The position numbers and the translations under genes are program-made. DNA of 64,000 bases, from NCBI RefSeq assembly GCF_020171525.1, contig NZ_JAIVAI010000006.1:62001-126000 (forward strand). Direction: 5' to 3'. Within the stretch, counting starts at the first letter, position 1. Every line of letters starts with the position of its first letter. This document shows, one piece after another, positions 5,559 through 63,833 of this stretch. This stretch comes from Halobacillus yeomjeoni. Its GTDB lineage: Bacteria; Bacillota; Bacilli; Bacillales; Halobacillaceae. The notes under the pieces are model-generated. The model ran no database searches and was not told where the DNA came from. It saw only the letters and a program-made list of their open reading frames with translations.

Positions 5559-6689
5559 CTAAATTTTTTTGCAGTTGTGCTTTAAATTCTTCTTTTCACA
5601 TAATAGATGAAAGGAAGAGTAAGTAAAATAGATAGTAAAAGGTATCATTATCGTATTAACATATCTAAAGTTTGAATGAGTGAAAATAAGTAATAGTAAC
5701 GTAATGATAAACATGTAATACAAATAATCTTTTTTAGGTCTTATGAAAAAAATTATCCATACTAAACTAATAACATTTAAGAATACAATTAGTTTTAACC
5801 AAATTCCTTTCTGAATAAAAGGATTATATGACCTAGCAATGTTATTCCAAACCATCTCTATAAATATATTGGATGTAATAAACTTTAATGATCCCAAATT
5901 ATTAAAAGCAAACGTTATTTCTTGCTTTAATTCGTGTTTAGTTACAGAAATATTGTACTTTAAATCTGTATATCTAATTGCAGCATATGTGTTCATTAAA
6001 TCAAGGAAATATTGGGAGAAAAAAATCATTATGCTAACTACACATATAAATAAGAGAGTTATGTTAAAAATTTTTTTTGAGTAATTACGAATTTTTTGTA
6101 AAAGAATTAAGGTTATAAAAATTAAAAAGTAATGTGGTCTAGCGATAATCAAAAATATACTCCCTACAGAAATTGGAATCCTTTTATTTTTCATTAAACC
6201 CCAAAAGATGATACATAAACTAGACACAGTTAGAGCTTCTTTTAACAGGAAGAAAGCCCAATAACTCCCCACTACAGACAATCCTATTAATAATAATATG
6301 CTGATATTATTTACTAGCTTCAAATTATAATTTCTTGATGTTAATTTAAATATCTCATTGAATAATAAGGAGATTGATAGTATATATAATGAAAAATTCA
6401 ATCCTCTTGTAAAAGAAAACCCACCAAATTCAATTAATAATTGTATCAGTTGATCAAATACTCCCCTATTATAATCACCGTAAACATAAACACTCTCATC
6501 AGGAAATAGTAATTTAGTTATATCTCCATTGAAAACACCCAAATAAAAATAACTTATCATTACACCTATATAGAATAATGCGATAAAAATGAAATTAAAT
6601 ATAGTTATTTTTGACATTTTTTTATTTAGCAGAAAAAGTGTCAAAAACACTATTATTACATTAGTTATTATAATAAAAATAAATCCCAT
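5559..6689 (-). CDS. Candidate O-antigen/capsule polymerase (Wzy-like membrane protein)
   Basis: Polytopic membrane protein of 376 residues with about 10 hydrophobic helices and little recognisable sequence motif, which is typical of Wzy polymerases. A large loop near residues 205-260 (around KYNISVTKHELKQEITF) could be the external catalytic loop. The ATG is preceded by AAAGGA. The locus has initiating transferase, flippase, glycosyltransferases and kinase, and lacks any other polymerase, so this is the best Wzy candidate by elimination (inference). An EpsG-like or acyltransferase-like role cannot be excluded. Confidence 0.55.
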   Translation of the reverse strand: MGFIFIIITNVIIVFLTLFLLNKKMSKITIFNFIFIALFYIGVMISYFYLGVFNGDITKLLFPDESVYVYGDYNRGVFDQLIQLLIEFGGFSFTRGLNFSLYILSISLLFNEIFKLTSRNYNLKLVNNISILLLIGLSVVGSYWAFFLLKEALTVSSLCIIFWGLMKNKRIPISVGSIFLIIARPHYFLIFITLILLQKIRNYSKKIFNITLLFICVVSIMIFFSQYFLDLMNTYAAIRYTDLKYNISVTKHELKQEITFAFNNLGSLKFITSNIFIEMVWNNIARSYNPFIQKGIWLKLIVFLNVISLVWIIFFIRPKKDYLYYMFIITLLLLIFTHSNFRYVNTIMIPFTIYFTYSSFHLLCEKKNLKHNCKKI

Positions 6690-6774
6690 TAAAACAGTCC
6701 TTTAACAGCTGATGGTAAAAATGCACTCTACTTTATAAATCAATAAAAATTATAAAGCTTTATCAACACCCAGA

Positions 6775-7986
6775 CTAATTTAAAGTGTTTTCTTCTAGAG
6801 TTAATTTTTTTAATCTTTTGTAGAATTTTTTTCTTTTGGCGTTTAATTTTTCCTCAGTGAAGTTACCAGCTACTTCTATATTACGTTCGCTAGCCTCCTC
6901 TAACCGTTCAGTATCCTGAATTAATTCGATTATCTTATTTGCGTAGCCTTCATGATCTTTATGATCTACTAAATATTCTGATGGTAAAATTTCTGGTATG
7001 CCAGTTACTGGTGATGAAATGCAAGGAAGCCCCACTGACATAGCTTCTAGTACTACTCTTGGCAATCCTTCAGCCATTGAGGGAAAAACAAATAAATCAG
7101 AGTTACTAATTAGCTCCCTTACAGCATCACCATCTGGCAATCTACCAGTAAACGTTACATATTTATCAATACCAAAACTTTTAGACATTTTTATGAACTC
7201 ACTCTTTAACGGCCCATCTCCAATAAACACAATATCTACATCATACCCTTTATTTCGAACTATTTTTAAAGCATTCATTAATGTTACATGCCCTTTACCA
7301 TAGCTTACAAAAGCATTGGCAACATGCGATATTGTAAATTTAGACTTACCATGATACTTTTTAGGCTCACCAAAACTATTTGCATTGAGTGATACAGATG
7401 AATAATTACTATCAAAATAATAATTACTTTCTCCATTTATTATAGAATAGGATGGGTATTTTTTTTGCAAGTAATTTTTAGTAACATAAGAAACACCATT
7501 AGCCTTTTTACAAATTCTTTTTAGAAAATTTGTCCAAATACGTCTCACTAAAGGTCTTGTTATGCTTTGAACGGAGCCCTTAGAGAAATATTCCCAAGGA
7601 TCAACAACCACTTCTACAGCAAATGGTTTTTTAGTAAGCGCAAATTCCTTACACATTATATTCGCAGTTGCTCCAGGTACTCTAAAAATTGCGCAATTAA
7701 ATCTCTTAGAATAATCCTTAGCCAAATTTCTTATCTTCCAATAGTTTTTCACGTACCCCCAAGGCCCTTTATAGGCAGGTAGTTCTAAAAATTCTACATT
7801 ATTGCCGCTTGCTAACTTCATATTGTTTGGTATAGATTGTAAAGAGGTTATTCTGCCTACCACATACACCTTATTATATACTGATAAATATCTTTTGAAA
7901 AAATCATAGTTATAAACAGATTCGACATATACACTTCCATTAGGGTCTCTATAATAATGACCATCCGGAACCACCATTATTTCCAT
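6775..7986 (-). CDS. Family 4 glycosyltransferase
   Basis: Retaining GT-B glycosyltransferase that adds a sugar of the repeat unit. The C-terminal domain is clear: SYGKGHVTLMNAL, the VFIGDGPLKSEF motif, TFTGRLPDGDAV, and the donor-binding EX7E-type segment PSMAEGLPRVVLEAMSVGLPCISSPVTGIPEIL near residues 305-340. The N terminus MEIMVVPDGHYYRDPNGSVYVES is less standard. The start ATG follows AAGGTG. It lies in the variable half of the capsule locus, 53 bases after the UDP-FucNAc synthesis genes, so it probably adds the third or later sugar of the unit (inference). Confidence 0.88.
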   Translation of the reverse strand: MEIMVVPDGHYYRDPNGSVYVESVYNYDFFKRYLSVYNKVYVVGRITSLQSIPNNMKLASGNNVEFLELPAYKGPWGYVKNYWKIRNLAKDYSKRFNCAIFRVPGATANIMCKEFALTKKPFAVEVVVDPWEYFSKGSVQSITRPLVRRIWTNFLKRICKKANGVSYVTKNYLQKKYPSYSIINGESNYYFDSNYSSVSLNANSFGEPKKYHGKSKFTISHVANAFVSYGKGHVTLMNALKIVRNKGYDVDIVFIGDGPLKSEFIKMSKSFGIDKYVTFTGRLPDGDAVRELISNSDLFVFPSMAEGLPRVVLEAMSVGLPCISSPVTGIPEILPSEYLVDHKDHEGYANKIIELIQDTERLEEASERNIEVAGNFTEEKLNAKRKKFYKRLKKLTLEENTLN

Positions 7987-17452: not shown

Positions 17453-18157
17453 TTATTGTCCATAATAATAATAGTAATTGCTGTACTTGACTTCCCTATC
17501 ATTCAAGACAGCACCCAAGATATTCGCCTTCGCTTGTACCAGTTGTTCTTTTGCTTTAATAGCAGCTTCCTGTTCCGTTTGTTTACTTCGTAAAACTAGA
17601 AGGACACCATCAACAAAATTAGATAAAATTTGCGAGTCTGCCACAGCAAGTACAGGCGGGGTATCAAAAATAATCATGTCGTAATGATTTTTTGCTTCCT
17701 GGATAAACCGCTGCATCTTCATCGATCCCAATAATTCTGAAGGATTCGGTGGAATCGGCCCACATGTTACGACATCCAAATTTTCAACATGAGTTTCATT
17801 AATAATATCGTTGATTGCATAATCATTGACAAGGTAGTTACTCAAACCCATTGTATTGTTCAAACGGAAAGTATAATGAATAGTAGGTTTACGTAAGTCG
17901 GCATCCACCAATAACACTTTCTTTCCTTGCTGAGCGAATACGACTGCTGTATTTCCTGTGGTAATCGACTTTCCTTCAGAAGGACTCGCTGATGTAACCA
18001 GCATTGTTTCCAACTTAGAGTCTACTGAGGAAAATTCGAGATTCGTACGGATGGTACGGAACTGCTCGGCAATCGGTGATTTAGGGTCGTCATTTGCTAT
18101 TAATCTACGAGCGCGATTTTGTACGATGTTGTTTTTCTTACGTGCCAACAGACTCAC
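17453..18157 (-). CDS. capB: CapB/YwqD-type bacterial tyrosine kinase
   Basis: Autophosphorylating BY-kinase that acts with the membrane CapA-like protein to control polymerisation and export. Seen are the Walker A segment TSASPSEGKSITTGN near residue 55, Walker A' VLLVDADLRKP near 80, Walker B-type MIIFDTPPVLAVADS near 160, and a C-terminal cluster of five adjacent tyrosines (YSNYYYYYGQ), the usual autophosphorylation site. Length 234 suits the cytoplasmic-only form of Gram-positive bacteria. Its start lies 20 bases inside the capA-like gene, so the two are translationally coupled. Confidence 0.95.
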   Translation of the reverse strand: MSLLARKKNNIVQNRARRLIANDDPKSPIAEQFRTIRTNLEFSSVDSKLETMLVTSASPSEGKSITTGNTAVVFAQQGKKVLLVDADLRKPTIHYTFRLNNTMGLSNYLVNDYAINDIINETHVENLDVVTCGPIPPNPSELLGSMKMQRFIQEAKNHYDMIIFDTPPVLAVADSQILSNFVDGVLLVLRSKQTEQEAAIKAKEQLVQAKANILGAVLNDREVKYSNYYYYYGQ

Positions 18158-18899
18158 CTCTCATACTTGAAACATTAGACTTTTTTTCTGATCGACCGCG
18201 TGTCGGTTTGATGTCCTCCGTAGAAATCGTGGATACGACACCCATAATCGGAAGACCAAGGGATTTTTCAATATCTTCTTCAGTTTTGATGGTGTTATCC
18301 AGATACTCCAGTAAGAATGCCAAACCTACTCCTACCATCAATCCTACGACAAGCGCAATAGCGATATTCAATGCCGGCTTGGGACTTACCGGTGATGGGT
18401 CAGCTGCAACAACAGCTTCGGTCAGGATGTTGACATTATCCACATTCATCAACTGCGGGATTTCTTCTTTGAATACTTTAACGGTTCTGTTTGCGATTGC
18501 AACCGCTTGTGTCGGGTCTTCATCAGTTACGACAACGTTAACGACCTGTGATTGATTCGCATTGGAAACTTGGATTTTATTGGCGAGACTCGTTGCGGTC
18601 ATGTTCAACTCCAAGTCTTCAATGACTTGATCTAAAATGCGAGGACTTTTTATAATAATGTTATATGTATTGATCAATTCGACGTTCGTTCGGATGTCGT
18701 TGATATCATAAGGCGTATTCTGCGACTGACTCTCTGACTGGTTGACTATGAATTGTGAAGAAGTTTGATACGTTGGCGTCAGGACAAAAAATGTAATGAG
18801 TGCACTAAGTACGGCTGCCCCTGCTGCCAAACTGATAATCAAGAGGATACGTTTTTTCAGCACCTCAAAAATTTCCTTCAATGAAATTGTTTCTTCCAT
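18138..18899 (-). CDS. capA: CapA/YveK-type chain-length regulator and kinase activator
   Basis: Membrane protein with two helices (LILLIISLAAGAAVLSALITFFVL-type near residues 18-42, and one near 175-200, PALNIAIALVVGLMVGVGLAFLLEYLD) around an extracellular Wzz domain. The cytoplasmic tail after the second helix (residues 200-253) should activate the CapB-like kinase. The N-terminal segment EETISLKEIFEVLKKR is typical. It is the first gene of the minus-strand capsule locus; TTGGAGG precedes the ATG and an extended -10 promoter lies about 40 bases upstream. Confidence 0.93.
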   Translation of the reverse strand: MEETISLKEIFEVLKKRILLIISLAAGAAVLSALITFFVLTPTYQTSSQFIVNQSESQSQNTPYDINDIRTNVELINTYNIIIKSPRILDQVIEDLELNMTATSLANKIQVSNANQSQVVNVVVTDEDPTQAVAIANRTVKVFKEEIPQLMNVDNVNILTEAVVAADPSPVSPKPALNIAIALVVGLMVGVGLAFLLEYLDNTIKTEEDIEKSLGLPIMGVVSTISTEDIKPTRGRSEKKSNVSSMRGESVGT

Positions 18900-55053: not shown

Positions 55054-55089
55054 CCCCTACCCGATCAGAGGTAGAAAGGAGTGTTGACC

Positions 55090-57549
55090 TTGGAAATGTC
55101 TCTAGCACACAATACGGCCTTACTTTTGCTTTCACTATCGTTAGGTATCTTGACTTCTTATGTATCTCTCTTTTTTGCTAAACGAGCAATTTTCATGGGA
55201 CAGTTGGAACGTGTTGCTTGGTTGATTGGTCGTGCTATCGGTTTCAGCGGTGTCGTCTGGCTGATTCACTTTCTCGTGATGATCGTTTATGGAATGAAGA
55301 TGGCCATCACAGATCGTCCTATTATTTTATTCACAAGCGTAGGTGCTTCTGCACTCTTCAGTTTTTCTGCATTTTACTTGATGAGTTCGAAAAAAAGCTT
55401 CAAAGGCCAAACGATTATATCGACAGCTTTGCTTACATCCAGCATCTATGTCATCAACTTCTTTTGTGAAAAATCTGTAAACCTGCCTGCTCTGTACACG
55501 CTTTTCCCGGAAGTCGCCATTCCACTTTTCTTTTTAACCACAGGGACCATTTATATGGCACTGCGCATCTTTTTCATTTATACCAAGGAAAAAGACAAAC
55601 GAAAATTCGGATGGATGACTGCGTTAATGATCGGTCTGACTATTTTCAGTTTTAATGTCATACGGACTGGGACAGTGAATTATGATATGAATGGTACTCC
55701 TTTTCCGGTTACCGGGGTGATCGCCATCAATGAAAATTCACTGATTTTCTTATTGTTCCTAGGGTTGTTTACCATGATGAGTTTGATGGTTTCCATCCTC
55801 AGCTTCGAAAAAAAACTCGACCATACCAAAGGCAAGTCCAAGTTTGCGAATCAAATGTATCAATCGATTATTCATGCGGCGAACGATGGGGTCTTCACCG
55901 TAAACCCTGAAGGAAAAATCCTTTCTTGGAATCAATCCGCTGAACGAATCTTCGGTTACAAACAATCAGAAATTGTCCACTCTCAAATCAGCAAGATCAT
56001 CAATTCAACGATGGAAGAAGTCTGCCAAATGAGACAAAAGTCAAAGCAGAAAGCATCCGGGGATTTTTCTTCTGCGGGTACCATTGAACTGGTCGGAAAG
56101 CATTCAGTCAATGGTGAATTCCCCATCGAAGTCTCGATTTCAACGATTGAGTCGGAAGAAGGATATGTGTACACCGCAATCATCCGGGACATAACCGAAC
56201 GTGAGATGAACAAACAAAAAATCGAAGCTTTAGTGTATACCGATCCATTAACTGAACTTCCCAACCGCCGTTTGATCCAGGAACACCTGGCTTCATTGAT
56301 CGAAGATACCGAAACACGGGACAGGCAGATTTCCGTCATGTTCATCGACTTGGATAAGTTCAAACACGTCAACGATATTCACGGACATAGAGTTGGAGAC
56401 AAATTGTTAATTGAGATCGCTTCAAGAGTACGGGCATGCTTAAAGGATGAAGGCATGATCGGACGGCTTGGTGGCGACGAGTTTCTTGTCATCCTCCCCA
56501 ACACCACCCCATTTGAATCAAAAAGCATCGCCAAGAAAATCATTGATGCCATTAACCTTCCTGTCGAAATCGAAGGGGCTGAGTTGTTCGTATCCTGTTC
56601 AGTCGGCATCAGTCTTTTCCCGGAAGACGGGTCTACAGCAGGCGAATTGATGAAGCATGCAGATACGGCCATGTATAAATCCAAACAATCCGGCGGGACC
56701 CAGTCCTGTTTTTACACCAACGAAATGGAGCAGAAAATTTCCAGGAAAGTTTTATTGGAATCAGGTCTTCGCAGAGCTTTAGAAAGAAACGAAATGAAGG
56801 TCTATTACCAACCCCAAGTCGACAGAGATGGTAAAGGTATCATCGGAGTTGAAGCCTTATTGAGGTGGACACATCCAGAGCTTGGGAATATACCCCCTTC
56901 GGAATTCATACCAATCGCTGAAGAAACGAAGCTCATCATCCCGATTGGTGAATGGGTGCTGGAACAAACCTGTCTGCAGCTAAAGGAATGGAACGATAAA
57001 GGAATTGTTATCAATCGGATAGCTGTGAACATCTCGACCATACAATTTCATAACACAGGTTTCGTGCAGATGGTCAGGAGAAAAATCCACAGCCACAAGC
57101 TTCCCCCTTCAAGCTTTGAATTGGAAATCACAGAAAGTGTAATCCAAGATTCCTTTACGGCGATCCCGATTATGAAAGAAATTAAAGCGATTGGCTGCAA
57201 GTTATCGCTTGATGACTTCGGTACAGGATATTCTTCTTTGCGGTATTTGAAAGATTTCCCACTGGATACGTTAAAAATTGATAAGTCGTTCATCCAAACC
57301 GTTTTATTCAGTGAAAAAGATCAGGCGATAGTGGATACGATTATCAATATGGCGGCACAGTTAGGTTTGAAAGTCATTGCAGAAGGTGTGGAAACGGAGG
57401 ATCAACTGGAATACTTAAAAAAGAATATCAATATTGGATATCAAGGGTACTTGTTCAGCCCGCCCATGGACGCAGGTAATATTACGACCAGTATGATTTT
57501 TACTGAAGTAAAGGGCAGTCAAAGTATGATTAGAGAAGACCATTCATAA
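55090..57549 (+). CDS. Membrane PAS-GGDEF-EAL protein (c-di-GMP turnover)
   Basis: An 819-residue protein that may make and/or break cyclic di-GMP. Residues 1-250 contain seven helices with a weak likeness to MHYT sensors: WLIHFLVMIVYGM stands where MHYT proteins have a MHF-type motif, so metal binding is doubtful. A PAS domain follows (about 258-375; IIHAANDGVFTVNPEGKILSWNQSAERIFG). Then comes GGDEF (about 380-545) with intact RLGGDEFLVI, and EAL (about 555-805) with VEALLRW, NISTIQF, ELEITESVI, LDDFGTGYSSL, KIDKSFI and AEGVET, all needed for phosphodiesterase activity. TTG at 55090 is chosen, 8 bases after AAGGAG; ATG 55096 is an alternative. Confidence 0.92.
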   Translation: MEMSLAHNTALLLLSLSLGILTSYVSLFFAKRAIFMGQLERVAWLIGRAIGFSGVVWLIHFLVMIVYGMKMAITDRPIILFTSVGASALFSFSAFYLMSSKKSFKGQTIISTALLTSSIYVINFFCEKSVNLPALYTLFPEVAIPLFFLTTGTIYMALRIFFIYTKEKDKRKFGWMTALMIGLTIFSFNVIRTGTVNYDMNGTPFPVTGVIAINENSLIFLLFLGLFTMMSLMVSILSFEKKLDHTKGKSKFANQMYQSIIHAANDGVFTVNPEGKILSWNQSAERIFGYKQSEIVHSQISKIINSTMEEVCQMRQKSKQKASGDFSSAGTIELVGKHSVNGEFPIEVSISTIESEEGYVYTAIIRDITEREMNKQKIEALVYTDPLTELPNRRLIQEHLASLIEDTETRDRQISVMFIDLDKFKHVNDIHGHRVGDKLLIEIASRVRACLKDEGMIGRLGGDEFLVILPNTTPFESKSIAKKIIDAINLPVEIEGAELFVSCSVGISLFPEDGSTAGELMKHADTAMYKSKQSGGTQSCFYTNEMEQKISRKVLLESGLRRALERNEMKVYYQPQVDRDGKGIIGVEALLRWTHPELGNIPPSEFIPIAEETKLIIPIGEWVLEQTCLQLKEWNDKGIVINRIAVNISTIQFHNTGFVQMVRRKIHSHKLPPSSFELEITESVIQDSFTAIPIMKEIKAIGCKLSLDDFGTGYSSLRYLKDFPLDTLKIDKSFIQTVLFSEKDQAIVDTIINMAAQLGLKVIAEGVETEDQLEYLKKNINIGYQGYLFSPPMDAGNITTSMIFTEVKGSQSMIREDHS

Positions 57550-58436: not shown

Positions 58437-58466
58437 AAAAACAGTCAGAAGAAATCTGACTGTTTT
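58437..58466 (-). terminator. Terminator of tagO
   Basis: Perfect arms AAAACAGTCAGA and TCTGACTGTTTT with a five-base loop; the stem starts at the tagO stop codon and a T run follows on the minus strand. Confidence 0.9.
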
Positions 58467-59553
58467 ACGCTTTTTCTTTTTCCTGTGATTTTTTCTCATT
58501 TTTTGAGATCAAATTGATCAACGGTCGTTTGCCTTTGTAAACTACACCTGTCATTTCCGCGAACAAATGGAGCATCAGCAGTAAAATGAAGGTGATGATC
58601 AATGATATTCCAAATGACGTTAGTGAAAAAAGAATCGCAAGCAGGCCGAACAAAGCACTGTAGCCATAAAGAATCAATACTGTCGTGCGATGACTGAACC
58701 CTGCCGCTAAAATTTGATAATGAATGTGCTTGTTATCCGGCATCATGATTTTCTGCTTGTTGATAATTCGACGTAAGATGGAAAACAGCGTATCAAATAC
58801 CGGAACGGCAAGAACAATGATTGGAATGACAAAACTGAACAGCGTCACATTTTTGAAAAGACCGACCATGGAAATGACAGCCATGGAATAACCGAGGAAC
58901 AAGGAACCAGTGTCCCCCATATAAATTTTGGCCGGGTAGAAATTGTGGAACAAGAAACCAAGGTTACTACCGATAAGGACGACGCACAAGTACACGATGG
59001 TCACTTGAGGTTCCAGGGCCAAAGCCATGACGGATATGCTGATCAGGGAGATAGTTGATACCCCTGTAGCGAGTCCGTCCAACCCGTCGATCAGGTTGAT
59101 TGCGTTCGTAATCCCCAGTATCCATAAAAAAGTGAACAGGATACTGATAAAATCATTCAATGGAACCATTCCGATAAAAGGAATACTGATTATATCTATT
59201 TTCAATCCTGAGATGATCAGCACTCCGGCTGCAGTCACTTGACCAGCCAGTTTAAAAATCGGTCGAATTTGATAACGGTCATCGAATAAACCAGTCAGTA
59301 CGATTATGACCGCACCGATGCATATCGGAATGAAATAAGGCATCTCCGGCCGGATATAAATCATACCTGCAACGACACCACCGAAGATGGCTAAGCCCCC
59401 CATACGGGGAGTGATCTCCGTGTGAATCTTTCTCAATTCCGGATAGTCCATCATCTTCCATTTGGCTGCCAGCTTTATTACTGGAAAGACCAGCAAATAG
59501 CTGACGAGCATGGATAATGCGATAGCTATTGCGATATCCAAATATATATTCAT
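58465..59553 (-). CDS. tagO: Undecaprenyl-phosphate GlcNAc-1-phosphate transferase
   Basis: Loads GlcNAc-1-phosphate on undecaprenyl phosphate, starting wall teichoic acid or secondary polymer linkage units, in the membrane. It is polytopic (about 11 helices) with MraY/WecA family motifs: HTEITPRMGGLAIFGG, LTGLFDDR (Mg-binding Asp), NAINLIDGLDGLA, YMGDTGSLFLGY and PDNKHIHYQIL. Length 362 matches TagO/WecA. AGGTAGG precedes the ATG by about 5-8 bases. It supplies the acceptor for the TagA proteins at 39.1 and 44.1 kb. The cytoplasmic C-terminal tail is Lys/Glu-rich. Confidence 0.95.
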   Translation of the reverse strand: MNIYLDIAIAIALSMLVSYLLVFPVIKLAAKWKMMDYPELRKIHTEITPRMGGLAIFGGVVAGMIYIRPEMPYFIPICIGAVIIVLTGLFDDRYQIRPIFKLAGQVTAAGVLIISGLKIDIISIPFIGMVPLNDFISILFTFLWILGITNAINLIDGLDGLATGVSTISLISISVMALALEPQVTIVYLCVVLIGSNLGFLFHNFYPAKIYMGDTGSLFLGYSMAVISMVGLFKNVTLFSFVIPIIVLAVPVFDTLFSILRRIINKQKIMMPDNKHIHYQILAAGFSHRTTVLILYGYSALFGLLAILFSLTSFGISLIITFILLLMLHLFAEMTGVVYKGKRPLINLISKNEKKSQEKEKA

Positions 59554-60263: not shown

Positions 60264-60298
60264 AAAACCCGACTCTGGATTAACCAAAATCAGGCTTT
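60264..60298 (-). terminator. Terminator of the sinR-like operon
   Basis: On the minus strand a G-U-containing stem (AAGCCTGA / TCGGGTT with an inner GG/CC) is followed by TTTTATTATG, just at the stop of the 192-residue gene. Confidence 0.7.
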
Positions 60299-60875
60299 AT
60301 CTTGTAAAATAATTCCCTTTATCCCTCATGGCCCATGTCCGCTCCATATACTTCAGCTGATAGCCTTCATAATCAAAGCGATGTATGTGTTTTTGTATGA
60401 CTTCGATTCCTTCATGATGACACGTAAAGAATATTACGACTGGATGAAGTAAAGAATCATAAAAGAAAATCGGATTCAAACTCCTCCTGACTTCTCCGAA
60501 GTTCCAATACCCGAACAGTTTCAACTTCCTGATCCATTCGTCATCTACAATACTTTCAGGAACCACACTCGCTCCTTCTTCTGAATAAGAACAGAGGTGA
60601 TGATAGCAGACAGCTGCCTGCATGTACGAAAAAGGGGATTCATCCCCTTCAATGGCGCACAACGGTTTTAGTATGGCTCGAGATGGTGATTGTGCATAGA
60701 CTTTCCCTTCGCTGCTGTGGATACTCCACCCTTCTTTGAGCCTGATTTGTGAAAATTGGTCGAGCAGAATTCCTAAGTCGCAGATAATATGAGGCTCACT
60801 ATGGTAAGGGGGGCGGTTCTTTATATAGATATTCTCTTTTGTTGAATCTTTAGTGAACATTACTTTCCCTTCCAT
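60297..60875 (-). CDS. Unknown 192-residue protein cotranscribed with sinR/sinI
   Basis: A cytoplasmic-looking protein without signal peptide, membrane helix or known motif. Features seen: KNRPPYHSEPHIICDLG near residue 20, YMQAAVCYHHLCSYSEE near 85, a tryptophan/aromatic-rich stretch KLKLFGYWNFGEVRRSLNPIFFYDSLLHP near 115-145, and HHEGIEVIQKHIHRFDYEGYQLKYMERTWAM at the end. There are many His and Tyr residues. AGGGGGGAG lies 4-6 bases before the ATG. It is 17 bases after the sinI-like gene, so it belongs to the same operon and may be an accessory regulator or output (inference). Confidence 0.8.
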   Translation of the reverse strand: MEGKVMFTKDSTKENIYIKNRPPYHSEPHIICDLGILLDQFSQIRLKEGWSIHSSEGKVYAQSPSRAILKPLCAIEGDESPFSYMQAAVCYHHLCSYSEEGASVVPESIVDDEWIRKLKLFGYWNFGEVRRSLNPIFFYDSLLHPVVIFFTCHHEGIEVIQKHIHRFDYEGYQLKYMERTWAMRDKGNYFTR

Positions 60876-60892
60876 TCCACTCCCCCCTTAAA

Positions 60893-61009
60893 TTACTTAC
60901 ATTTACTCAATAAAGTCTTAAGCTCCTCAATGCTGTATCCAAGGTTCTTCGCCTCCTTGATCAAAGTCACCCATTCTTCATCCATCTGTTTTGACTCATC
61001 ATGATCCAT
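60893..61009 (-). CDS. sinI: SinI-like anti-repressor (38 residues)
   Basis: A very short protein with the SinI dimerisation helix-turn-helix DEEWVTLIKEAKNLGYSIEELKTLLSK (residues 10-36), which in Bacillus binds SinR and frees it from DNA. The upstream gene encodes a SinR-type DNA-binding protein, with 27 bases between, and GAGAGG precedes the ATG. In B. subtilis SinI lies before SinR; here the order is reversed and both are in one unit. The neighbouring regulator lacks the separate SinI-binding tail of B. subtilis SinR, so how they interact is open. Confidence 0.85.
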   Translation of the reverse strand: MDHDESKQMDEEWVTLIKEAKNLGYSIEELKTLLSKCK

Positions 61010-61036
61010 AGAGATATCCTCTCTTTCTTCAAGGAA

Positions 61037-61264
61037 TCATTTCACATCGCTTTCTTCTTCCATCTTAAAGGAAACCAGATCTTCCAAAGGGACTTCCAGT
61101 GTCTTTGATAATTTGCTCATGATGATGAGAGACGGATTCTTTTGGACCCCTCTTTCAATATTACTGATGTATGACTTAGATACTTTGGATCTTTTAGCTA
61201 ATTCATTGACTGAAAATCCTTTTCCCAACCTCAAAACCCTCAACCTTTGACCTATCGTTGTCAT
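61037..61264 (-). CDS. sinR: SinR-like Xre-family regulator (short form)
   Basis: A 75-residue protein that is almost only a helix-turn-helix: MTTIGQRLRVLRLGKGFSVNELAKRSKVSKSYISNIERGVQKNPSLIIMSKLSKTLEVPLEDL. The pattern SKSYISNIERGxxxNPS is very close to the N-terminal domain of SinR (KSYLSSIERNxQTNPS), the master biofilm repressor. The C-terminal SinI-like dimerisation domain of SinR (about 40 residues) is missing and the protein ends with a short acidic tail; the separate sinI-like gene follows. ATG 61264 has GGCGGTGA upstream; GTG 61279 is an alternative. GTTCTTT boxes lie upstream. Confidence 0.85.
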   Translation of the reverse strand: MTTIGQRLRVLRLGKGFSVNELAKRSKVSKSYISNIERGVQKNPSLIIMSKLSKTLEVPLEDLVSFKMEEESDVK

Positions 61265-61613
61265 CTGCTTCACCGCCACTTTCTATTCAGTGATTGAACG
61301 TTCTTTATCTTGTTGTTCTGTTCTTTATTAAGAATATTATAAGCCGGTTTACTCGTAAAAGAAACCACTGTATTTCAATATAAAGAACAAATATGAATCA
61401 AATGCTCTCAATAACGAACATTATCTTTGTTTTTCTTTCCTTTTTAAAGAACACACTATATAAAAACGCACTTTATAATGAACACTATTAATAAAAACAC
61501 CTATACCAACAACAGTATCGGCTTATCTTCAACAAAGTCATGCATGTTTCGCTATAAGTCTTTCCAACTTGAAGCTGATTTATGATTTCCATTAAATTTT
61601 TTTTAGATTTGTG
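61265..61613. other. AT-rich regulatory stretch upstream of the sinR-like gene
   Basis: About 350 bases without a gene. It contains a minus-strand TATAAT and repeated GTTCTTT/AAAGAAC boxes described separately; the left end has the ribosome site of the sinR-like gene. Confidence 0.5.
61300..61452 (-). promoter_or_regulatory. Cluster of SinR-type boxes around the sinR promoter
   Basis: Four perfect copies of GTTCTTT occur: direct at 61300-61306 and 61320-61326, inverted at 61382-61388 and 61446-61452, with further GAAC half-sites near 61416 and 61480. GTTCTYT is the known B. subtilis SinR box. The -10 candidate TATAAT lies at 61336-61341 (minus), so boxes flank the promoter of the sinR-like operon. 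Confidence 0.6.
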
Positions 61614-61645
61614 CACAAAAAAAAGAGAGAAACACATTCTCTCCT
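61614..61645 (-). terminator. Terminator of the AraC-family gene
   Basis: Arms GAGAGAA and TTCTCTC with a five-base loop (61625-61643), followed on the minus strand by CTTTTTTTT-like tract. Confidence 0.85.
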
Positions 61646-61647
61646 TT

Positions 61648-62856
61648 TCATCCCATGACATGATATTTTTTTCGGAATTCTTTCGGTCCAACTCCTGCAT
61701 GTTTCTTGAAGACCCTTGTAAAATAACTCTGGCTGTTATAACCCAGCAGGATACTGATCTCCATCAAAGAATAATCTGTAATACTCAAAAGCTCTTTTGC
61801 TTCATTGACCCTCTGTTCGTTGATGAATTGTGATATGGAAATTCCGGTTTCCTTCGTGAAGATGCCTGATAAATAATTAGGATGGACATTCAAGTCTGCT
61901 GCAATGTCCTTCAGCGTCAATTCTTCCGTCAAATTATTCAAGATATACCTTTGAGCTTTCTCTACGTGAGGAGAGTAATAGGCGTCTTTTCTAGTCGAGC
62001 CACATCGTTCCATCAAAGTAAGAATGATGTTATTTTCTAATTCTTGAAGTTCCTCCGTACTCTCTTTTGTTTCTCCATAGCGGATGTAAAACTCACATAA
62101 GGATTCTAATTCGTCTCTTGGACCGCCTTCTTCAATACAAATCTGTGTGAGTTCTGTAATCATGCGGATCAATTGATTTTTTTCTGACCTCAATTCATCT
62201 GCTTCAGCAAGTGGATTGCTGTATTCTTCTTTGTATGATTGATAGAGGTGGAGCGCTTTATGATCTTTCATTTTGAAAGAACTTATGAATTGTCGTTTAA
62301 TTTCATCGCCCTGATCCGAAATCAACTCTTTAGATGAGTGATCTTTCTTGTAATACTTCTTACTCATTGCATTCGCTGTCCGGAAATTGTTGTCTGTCCC
62401 GGGGAGGATAATATTCAGCAGCCGTTCAATGGACAGCATATGCATCCGATCGAATACAGGAAGCTGATCAAAATAAGCCATCATCTTCGATTCCAGAGTA
62501 GGGTCCATATCGTTTACCTTCAACATTCGCTGTACTTGTGAGCGACCGATTTCCTGATGCAGGAATGGTCCGATTCCGATCACCATTTCCGTTCCTTGAG
62601 ATGTCTTGAAGGGGTAAAGAAATACATGCTGATTGAATGGGTCAGAGAAGAATTGAAGTTTCAGTAAAAATTTCTTACTTTGATCGATATATTGATCGAT
62701 ATATTTTCTGACGATGGGTGGGGGATTTTTCAAGTGATCCGGGAAGTGATACTTAATTCGATTATTATGATCGATCAACAGCACCGGTGCATTCAGGACT
62801 GCAGAACAGTCTTTCAATAATTGAATCAATTCATAGTTCAAATCTACCACGTCCAT
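61648..62856 (-). CDS. AraC-family transcriptional regulator
   Basis: DNA-binding activator or repressor of 402 residues. The C-terminal 100 residues contain the double helix-turn-helix: VEKAQRYILNNLTEELTLKDIAADLNVHPNYLSGIFTKETGISISQFINEQRVNEAKELLSITDYSLMEISILLGYNSQSYFTRVFKKHAGVGPKEFRKKY. The N-terminal 280 residues begin DVVDLNYELIQLLKDCSAVLNAPVLLIDHNNRI, which recalls a PAS- or GAF-like sensory fold (as in YesN-type regulators) but has no receiver domain. ATG at 62856 lies directly after GGGGGG with GGAGAG 8 bases upstream; GTG 62850 is possible. It sits between two sinI-like genes. Confidence 0.9.
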   Translation of the reverse strand: MDVVDLNYELIQLLKDCSAVLNAPVLLIDHNNRIKYHFPDHLKNPPPIVRKYIDQYIDQSKKFLLKLQFFSDPFNQHVFLYPFKTSQGTEMVIGIGPFLHQEIGRSQVQRMLKVNDMDPTLESKMMAYFDQLPVFDRMHMLSIERLLNIILPGTDNNFRTANAMSKKYYKKDHSSKELISDQGDEIKRQFISSFKMKDHKALHLYQSYKEEYSNPLAEADELRSEKNQLIRMITELTQICIEEGGPRDELESLCEFYIRYGETKESTEELQELENNIILTLMERCGSTRKDAYYSPHVEKAQRYILNNLTEELTLKDIAADLNVHPNYLSGIFTKETGISISQFINEQRVNEAKELLSITDYSLMEISILLGYNSQSYFTRVFKKHAGVGPKEFRKKYHVMG

Positions 62857-62897
62857 CCCCCCTTCTCTCCTCCTACTTACCATACATTATACACTAA

Positions 62898-62939
62898 AAA
62901 AAAGAACACCTTCTATTAGATAAATAGATGGTGTTATAA
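62898..62939 (-). terminator. Terminator of the second sinI-like gene
   Basis: Stem AACACC-CTATT / AATAG-GGTGTT at 62906-62936 with internal mismatches, then CTTTTTTTTAG on the minus strand. Confidence 0.8.
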
Positions 62940-63071
62940 AATTCGTTTTCTTACTATAGTTTGATCGAGGAATTCTTTGACCTCTTCAATATCTATTCCC
63001 ATTTCTTTCGCCTGTTTGATCAATAATACCCATTCAGGATCCATTCTTTTTTCGTCCTTCATCCTTTTCAT
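62934..63071 (-). CDS. Second SinI-like protein (45 residues)
   Basis: Small protein with the SinI helix pair DPEWVLLIKQAKEMGIDIEEVKEFLDQ (residues 11-37), a basic N terminus (MKRMKDEKRM) and a short basic tail. AGGAGGGG lies 5 bases before the ATG and a terminator follows, so it is a single-gene unit. The core shares the xEWVxLIKxAKxxGxxIEExKxxL pattern with the copy at 60.9 kb. No SinR-like gene is adjacent. It may bind the same SinR, a SlrR-type partner elsewhere, or act as a repressor of gene expression by itself (inference). Confidence 0.85.
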   Translation of the reverse strand: MKRMKDEKRMDPEWVLLIKQAKEMGIDIEEVKEFLDQTIVRKRIL

Positions 63072-63270
63072 TCTTTCCCCTCCTATTTTCTGAACGTGTG
63101 TCTATATATAGGTTTGGTTCAGCATTAGACACCCACTAAATTCCAAAAAAGAAGATTATAATGTTATTATACAGGGAAAATTTCAATATTTTTGCACATT
63201 GATCACCTTTTTTTAACTTAACTCATTCAATTTTTGATTTTTTAGATAAAAAATATGTAGTTTTATGCAG
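63072..63270. other. Intergenic stretch of about 200 bases
   Basis: AT-rich, no gene seen. It should hold the promoter of the second sinI-like gene on the minus strand; no clear hexamers or GTTCTTT boxes were found. Confidence 0.35.
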
Positions 63271-63331: not shown

Positions 63332-63790
63332 TCAGCTGTACATCCGATTCCATTCATCACTCAATGTCTGAAACGCATCAGGATCGTTGGTATCGATGGA
63401 ATGATCGATCAGGCGTCTAAGGTTTGCTTTTTCCAGTTCTTTGATGACTCCTTGTACTTCATCGGAGTAAACATCGTCTTCCAAAGAATCTTCCTCCTCA
63501 TAATAAGGTTCAATGATCGTTTTCAGGTGAGTAATGAATTCTGGCGTATGAAGAAGATCAGCTACTGATACATACACCATTTTTTTACCGCGTTGAAAGA
63601 CAAAAATATCGAAGACATTGTGGACACGTTTGCGAGTGCGGTCGATTATGATTTCTCGGGATTCTACAGGGACAAATTGATACAATTCGTTGTCAATGAA
63701 CAGTGAGAAATATTGATAAGCAAGAACGACACGAATGAAACGTTTGTCTTCCTTGACATAATACGGTTTCAACATTTTAATATTTAACAC
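63332..63790 (-). CDS. IDEAL-domain protein
   Basis: A 152-residue cytoplasmic protein. The N-terminal part (KPYYVKEDKRFIRVVLAYQYFSLFIDNELYQFVPVESREIIIDRTRKRVHNVFDIFVFQRGKK) has no function known to me. The C-terminal segment LRRLIDHSIDTNDPDAFQTLSDEWNRMY is an IDEAL domain, a short helical module of Bacillaceae proteins such as YpiB and YhzC. GTG at 63790 is preferred since AAGGGG lies 8 bases before it; GTG 63799 is adjacent to that site. In B. subtilis the IDEAL protein YhzC lies next to comK, which agrees with the possible comK fragment 43 bases upstream. Confidence 0.82.
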   Translation of the reverse strand: MLNIKMLKPYYVKEDKRFIRVVLAYQYFSLFIDNELYQFVPVESREIIIDRTRKRVHNVFDIFVFQRGKKMVYVSVADLLHTPEFITHLKTIIEPYYEEEDSLEDDVYSDEVQGVIKELEKANLRRLIDHSIDTNDPDAFQTLSDEWNRMYS

Positions 63791-63833
63791 TTCGCTCACC
63801 CCTTAAAATCAGAATTTTCTGTATTTTATTCTA

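Follow-up and report, generated by a model that had tools for sequence, protein, structure and literature searches.

On which repressor do SinI-type anti-repressors act when no intact sinR stands beside them, and what part can be played by a SinR-like protein devoid of the domain through which SinR meets SinI? Both questions are raised by a locus of Halobacillus yeomjeoni situated in a window of 64,000 nucleotides (the whole stretch of DNA analysed, C6:62001-126000 of a 3.27-Mb assembly of 15 contigs). SinI/SinR is the textbook bistable biofilm decision, deciphered mainly in Bacillus subtilis and in the B. cereus group. At 60297-63071 of the window, five genes, all on the minus strand, lie where an earlier note made from the sequence alone (the original prediction) had placed them. 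They are transcribed in the order SinI-b, AraC-type regulator, short SinR-like helix-turn-helix (HTH) protein, SinI-a, and a protein of 192 amino acids (aa). This arrangement is conserved, is built of known parts, and is apparently an undescribed variant of the SinI–SinR switch, no description of it having been found in the open-licence literature as judged from titles and abstract openings. Taken as a whole, the locus has in our estimation an even chance of belonging to a dispersed and rewired sin switch, whose repressor is encoded alone on another contig.

Familiar parts are found rearranged, with anti-repressors placed beside another type of regulator and apart from the repressor, and with a SinR-like protein missing the domain that gives SinR both its oligomerisation and its sensitivity to SinI. 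If the short HTH protein reads the same operators as SinR, the locus would offer a natural separation of DNA binding from oligomer formation in the sin switch, as well as a test case for the evolutionary rewiring of such switches.

Conservation of the cluster

A survey of the arrangement in relatives found the cluster in 20 of the 22 genomes of the genus Halobacillus, that of the window included, the two genomes devoid of it being G015 and G018. Neighbourhoods were compared over regions of 12.5-13 kb in the 20 genomes (7.6 kb in one). Because the same gene order, IDEAL-SinIb-AraC-HTH-(SinIa)-unknown, recurs in the relatives, the cluster is not a chance array. SinI-b precedes the AraC gene in all 20 clusters, whereas SinI-a follows the HTH gene in 15 (the copy of L046 looks decayed and that of L053 scores weakly), SinI-b rather than SinI-a being the constant member. 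The AraC gene is intact in 19 clusters; in L041 (genome G001; 6598-7784) it is spread over two frames and looks disrupted. The gene for the 192-aa protein is in place in 17. Across the genus, the short HTH protein is 63-79% identical to the window copy, and the best match in the remaining two genomes is a SinR.

Outside the genus, the cluster resolves into two separable units, HTH–(SinI-a)–unknown and SinI-b–AraC, which occur in varying order or lie apart. The SinI-b–AraC pairing is also found at L108-L112, L205, and L206. The four small genes are under purifying selection, with pooled ratios of nonsynonymous to synonymous differences (pN/pS) of 0.10 for the HTH protein (11 pairs), 0.18 for the 192-aa protein (11 pairs), 0.23 for SinI-b (8 pairs), and 0.30 for SinI-a (9 pairs), all pairs being hand-picked from close genomes and three of them sharing members.

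An intact SinR apart from the SinI genes

A search of the genome for a full-length SinR recovered a protein of 109 aa encoded on another contig (C8:108038-108337), which scores 134.7 bits against B. subtilis SinR (1B0N chain A) over residues 1-107 and whose C-terminal hook scores 58.9 bits against PF08671. Besides this hook, contig C8 gave no PF08671 match in the whole-genome search (E up to 10), and no sinI stands beside sinR. The original prediction had proposed a SinI-type helix either as a partner in trans of the short HTH protein or as a competitor for a distant full-length SinR. For the second idea, the setting is established, since a distant SinR with an intact hook does exist, while the competition itself is plausible on sequence grounds.

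The two separate SinI-like proteins announced by the same note are confirmed, both lying above the curated PF08671 cut-off (Table 1). Their scores of 29.2 and 31.5 bits against NF046031, the Bacillus SinI equivalog, do not reach its cut-off of 80 bits. Judged by these models and by NCBI's rule, both proteins are members of the SinI family placed outside the Bacillus-type equivalog. Among the 46 usable hooks of SinI-a and SinI-b across the clusters, 44 share more identities with B. subtilis SinI than with B. subtilis SinR (the wrongly cut row b_L048 was not counted, and the SinI-a of L046 was outside the set).

The distribution of hooks in the genus would fit with SinI-b as the partner of SinR. 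In G004, G007, G009, and G021, PF08671 matches at two places each (E ≤ 0.001), namely the SinR hook and SinI-b, the latter being the sole free-standing SinI found in these four relatives at that threshold. The cluster-less genomes G015 and G018 each have one weak PF08671 match (one of 28.5 bits at the place of SinR, the other with an E of 2.2e-4, its place not being listed), and the PF08671 search found no free-standing SinI in them at E 0.001 (L209, L210). SinR hooks of the cluster-bearing genomes of the genus score 56-62 bits against PF08671, and a custom hook model gave 27.0 and 23.5 bits for the SinR hooks of G015 and G018, respectively. A weak SinR hook where the cluster is missing is what would be expected if the hook is kept for SinI-b to grip.

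Two further free-standing SinI-domain proteins, of 70 and 48 aa, are encoded on contig C1 (L004:1393-1605, L005:1480-1626), and the hooks of both are nearer to the SinR of the window genome than to B. subtilis SinI. The first adjoins a frame reading like a diguanylate cyclase. Another SinI gene (L207:7008-7151, L208:7374-7490) lies about 3 kb or less from a WecA-like gene in G024 and G026, the two WecA-like products being 45-47% identical to that of the window. In B. thuringiensis, a sinI-sinR double mutant was found to be unlike a sinR mutant, and a regulator other than SinR is proposed there as a possible target of SinI (PMC3909190), which leaves room for further SinI partners.

A short SinR-like protein without the hook

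The short HTH protein corresponds to the DNA-binding half of SinR only, as the original prediction had it. Its best matches among solved chains are SinR structures, for instance residues 2-71 of 1B0N chain A, with which it aligns over its own residues 9-78 (53.6 bits), i.e., with a HTH like that of SinR 1-69. Behind the HTH_3 domain, the 80-aa protein has no Pfam match, and the C-terminal two-helix hook responsible for tetramer formation and SinI binding is missing, as the frame stops at 80 aa, and at 65-93 aa in the 31 aligned members. All 31 carry Asn in the recognition helix at the position of SinR Ser33.

In a tree of HTH domains, 15 SinR rows, including that of the window genome, fall on one side of a branch (96/97) and the short HTHs outside it. 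This tree was built on 63 columns, with a long-branch warning, from 47 rows comprising 21 short HTHs (L205, L206, and 19 members of the alignment of 31), 9 convergent short HTHs described below, 15 SinR, and 2 others; the intended outgroups L038 and L039 had been dropped beforehand as their helix was not recognisable. The 21 short HTHs do not unite on one side of a branch in these 63 columns. A recent truncation of the window genome's own SinR is ruled out, the SinR rows branching apart from the short HTHs.

In the window, HTH and SinI-a share a reading frame with a single TGA between them. As computed from positions, the two starts agree in frame in 15 of the 23 clusters having both genes and disagree in the other 8. 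The splitting of one sinR-like gene by a frameshift, which the original prediction had named as its possible undoing, or by a nonsense mutation is excluded by these 8 clusters and by the shortness of all 31 aligned members (65-93 aa). The frame shared in the 15 clusters may reflect inheritance among related genomes, or it may be a trace of gene fission.

SinR-type operators

The target of SinR is described as the inverted repeat 5'-TTTGTTCTCTAAAGAGAACTTA-3' (PMC3163267). In the window, GTTCTTTATTAAGAAT is found at 61320-61335 (plus-strand reading), abutting the -10 hexamer of the short HTH gene on its downstream side, and like elements occur in the promoters of relatives. A GTTCTN6AGAAC site with at most one mismatch is present within 320 bases in 26 of the 31 short-HTH promoters, vs a mean of 0.33 and a maximum of 2 in 200 dinucleotide shuffles of the same promoters. 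The 31 promoters are those of all short HTHs of the alignment, the later finds L205 and L206 being unscored. In G016, a gene of the 192-aa type lies apart from the HTH gene and carries two such operators of its own.

Similar sites precede other genes of interest. A one-mismatch site was found in the sinR promoter of 5 of the 6 genus genomes examined, G018 being the exception, and one relative has an operator-type site ahead of a subtilase gene. The window genome holds five exact GTTCTYN4RAGAAC sites, all on C6, four of which lie in a 13-kb exopolysaccharide cluster (CpsB, LytR-CpsA-Psr, Polysacc_synt_2, DegT, flippase, Wzz, kinase), the fifth falling within a different gene. The SinI-b promoter is conserved but of another kind, with TATAAT and spaced TGA elements: among 18 aligned promoters (from the 20 genus clusters, L048 and L053 being excluded for their uncertain start), no shared Spo0A-type box was seen, and 17 lack any GTTCT palindrome with fewer than two mismatches. 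A second Wzz gene is located in the window at 18153-18884; its product is 46% identical to that encoded at C6:11965, and no SinR-type operator was found in its 400 upstream bases.

How the parts may act together

If these parts form one switch, full-length SinR would repress the promoters carrying GTTCT operators, i.e., its own, that of one exopolysaccharide cluster, and that of the short-HTH operon, the operators being observed and SinR being their presumed binder. SinI-b would be the main anti-repressor, encoded in a unit with AraC, as the layout displays, instead of beside sinR. The AraC regulator probably responds to some signal and would then drive both SinI-b and itself. Given its family and the conserved pattern of its hook, SinI-b may pair with the SinR hook and lift SinR off DNA as B. 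subtilis SinI does. Removal of SinR would derepress the HTH–SinI-a–unknown operon, together with an exopolysaccharide cluster in this species; SinI-a may add positive feedback. The short HTH protein, hook-less and presumably beyond the usual grip of SinI, may occupy the same kind of operator and adjust the strength of the response or terminate it. SlrR of B. subtilis is a SinR paralogue whose own gene is under SinR control; the short HTH protein would take the place of SlrR in the loop, but through competition for DNA sites instead of SinR binding. A wider proposal is possible and is offered tentatively: in Halobacillus and close relatives, the input of SinI–SinR would have moved from a sinR-linked sinI to an AraC regulator, with the addition of a third, hook-less SinR paralogue reading SinR operators and not disarmable by SinI.

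Several points weigh against such a switch. The operator is not enriched genome-wide, the looser pattern giving 8 sites vs 7 for the reversed control in the window genome, and the stricter one 5 vs 5 there and 59 vs 73 over the 22 genus genomes (forward counts summed); only the placing and clustering of the sites, not their number, would then be telling. No site is present in promoters L106 and L107, and the best sites of L048, L051, and L112 carry two mismatches. Within 400 bases upstream of the main Wzz gene, a site with one mismatch or none occurs in 1 of 21 genomes, which is that of the window; ahead of second Wzz copies, such sites occur at 4 of 9 loci (out of 15 matches, 6 without a locus being left unscored). 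A general control of exopolysaccharides by the operator is therefore only partly true, and its link with polysaccharide genes, as read from these sites, varies by species. The Asn found instead of Ser33 in every short HTH may have shifted the site specificity. No match to the TasA family (PF12389) was found in the window genome, and the association seen in G015 and G018 may represent a single evolutionary event.

Some of these points fit with a local circuit, in which the short HTH protein would bind the palindromes of its own promoter and control only its own operon with the 192-aa protein, both SinI proteins acting on SinR independently and the motif being shared by ancestry. Small XRE-type proteins often repress themselves, and the operators are frequent at the HTH promoter (26/31), inconstant at polysaccharide genes, and unenriched over the genome. 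Of the four genes, that of the short HTH protein also shows the strongest purifying selection (pN/pS 0.10), and it persists without SinI-a. However, this explanation leaves the co-clustering of SinI-a and SinI-b across much of the family without a reason, and the same motif precedes sinR and occurs in an exopolysaccharide cluster. It seems unlikely on balance, while keeping a real chance of being right.

The split SinR of the original prediction fares less well. In this scheme, SinI-a (or SinI-b) would supply the missing hook in trans and form a heteromeric repressor with the short HTH protein. Neighbouring genes of split proteins commonly interact, and the HTH and SinI-a genes are close neighbours that share a reading frame in 15 of 23 clusters. 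But 5 of the 20 genus clusters keep the HTH gene with no SinI-a found, and the short HTHs stand outside the SinR group of the tree. In addition, comparable short HTHs stand convergent to an intact sinR at nine loci of three other families, and 21 of the 22 SinI-a hooks compared resemble B. subtilis SinI more closely than B. subtilis SinR. The known SinI–SinR complex is a heterodimer formed hook to hook, SinR residues 1-69 by themselves being monomeric (PMC3163267). As SinI and SinR pair through their hooks and the short HTH protein has none, the latter is left without a known way to bind SinI, making a split SinR improbable.

That SinI-b targets the neighbouring AraC regulator rather than SinR is highly improbable. 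The pairing is constant (20/20 genus clusters plus L108-L112, L205, and L206), but 23 of the 24 SinI-b hooks that could be used resemble B. subtilis SinI more than the SinR hook, SinR retains its hook, and this hook is weak in the two cluster-less genomes.

Relation to known systems

The dispersed switch proposed here shares several traits with sinI-sinR of B. subtilis, where SinI is the anti-repressor of a SinR tetramer: SinI-type PF08671 hooks, an intact SinR elsewhere in the window genome, and inverted GTTCT sites in the exopolysaccharide cluster of that genome and before the subtilase gene of one relative. It differs from it by two sinI copies residing in an AraC/short-HTH cluster away from sinR, by the lack of a shared Spo0A-type box ahead of SinI-b in the 18 promoters, and by an extra hook-less SinR paralogue. 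The presence of a SinR paralogue with SinR-type operators in its promoter, together with further SinI paralogues, is reminiscent of SlrR/SlrA. However, the SlrR model NF046032 spans 149 positions and includes the hook, whereas the short HTH protein has 80 aa and no hook and scores only 66.4 bits (positions 2-62) against a cut-off of 250. SlrR is reported to bind SinR (PMC3163267).

Besides those of the cluster, other short SinR-like HTHs were encountered in a search over 299 genomes of the order, with matches in 161. Taking the listed matches outside the family that have an open frame below 90 aa yields nine loci (L196-L204, three other families), and hence at least nine. At all nine, the gene of a hook-less SinR-like HTH of 72-87 aa is convergent to a full-length sinR, ahead of which a clear SinI gene stands in seven. 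Like the short HTHs of the cluster, these convergent proteins are small, carry a comparable helix, VSKSYIS.(I/V)ERG, and are linked to SinR and mostly to SinI genes. Unlike them, they lie beside sinR, carry Tyr where the proteins of the cluster have Asn (SinR position 33), and form their own group in the tree (96/86). No description of a convergent short HTH beside sinR was found in the open-licence literature (titles and abstract openings). From its sequence and position, this hook-less gene may be a third member of the sin locus that has gone unnoticed; if true, such paralogues would suggest that a third component of the sin system has been missed.

The AraC-type regulator, the 192-aa protein, and neighbouring features

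The 411-aa regulator belongs to the AraC family by its domains (HTH_18 77.5 bits, HTH_AraC 74.8 bits). Its model has a mean predicted local distance difference test score (pLDDT) of 80, and its convincing matches among solved structures are owed to the DNA-binding end. A PAS-like sensor domain was considered from a match to 4ew7, which at E 6.8e-3 is too weak to name a domain. The regulator is similar over its full length to the YSIRK-adjacent AraC family TIGR04094, with 141.7 bits, but stays below the family cut-off of 200.

Of the other products of the HTH operon, the 192-aa protein is the most constant. Searches of Pfam and NCBIfam up to E = 1 gave no match to it. Its fold is predicted with high confidence (Table 1), and no Foldseek match was obtained at E ≤ 0.001, the best VIA-align result being a Z of 5.1 over 66 residues, in a range that may reflect no more than a similar arrangement, and no fold is assigned. 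The core of the protein recurs at the C-terminal end of proteins of about 440 aa in other genera, among others Metabacillus and Peribacillus (L090:598-1893, L158:4365-5699), one of which has a sub-threshold DUF1643 match.

Table 1. Coordinates of the cluster genes, promoter elements, and conserved neighbour in the window
Feature	Position	Strand	Evidence
SinI-b, 45 aa, heading the SinI-b–AraC unit	62934..63071	minus	PF08671 49.1 bits (cut-off 31.4); before AraC in 20/20 genus clusters
Conserved -10 hexamer TATAAT of the SinI-b–AraC unit	63166..63171	minus	Aligned upstream regions of 18/20 genus clusters; also spaced TGA elements
AraC-type regulator, 411 aa	61648..62883	minus	HTH_18 77.5 bits
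Short SinR-like HTH protein, 80 aa, GTG start, without C-terminal hook	61037..61279	minus	HTH_3 55.1 bits (cut-off 23)
Operator O1, SinR-type, one mismatch to GTTCTN6AGAAC, just downstream of the -10 hexamer	61320..61335	minus	Palindrome scoring
-10 hexamer TATAAT of the short HTH gene	61336..61341	minus	Read from the sequence; same TATAAT seen by eye ahead of the operator in 20 promoters
Weaker operator-like palindrome, two mismatches, at -109	61373..61388	minus	Palindrome scoring
Weaker operator-like palindrome, two mismatches, at -173	61437..61452	minus	Palindrome scoring
SinI-a, 38 aa	60893..61009	minus	PF08671 33.3 bits (cut-off 31.4); in 15/20 genus clusters
192-aa protein, behind HTH and SinI-a	60297..60875	minus	No Pfam/NCBIfam match; found in 29/44 family genomes; AlphaFold2 mean pLDDT 90
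IDEAL-domain protein, conserved upstream neighbour	63332..63799	minus	PF08858 29.5 bits; beside the cluster in 19/20 genus genomes

The IDEAL-domain protein listed in Table 1 is given as context and is perhaps not a member of the system. Downstream, polymer and cyclic diguanylate (c-di-GMP) genes are located nearby, in agreement with the original prediction: a Glycos_transf_4 gene at 58465-59553 and, on the opposite strand, a PAS-GGDEF-EAL gene at 55081-57549.

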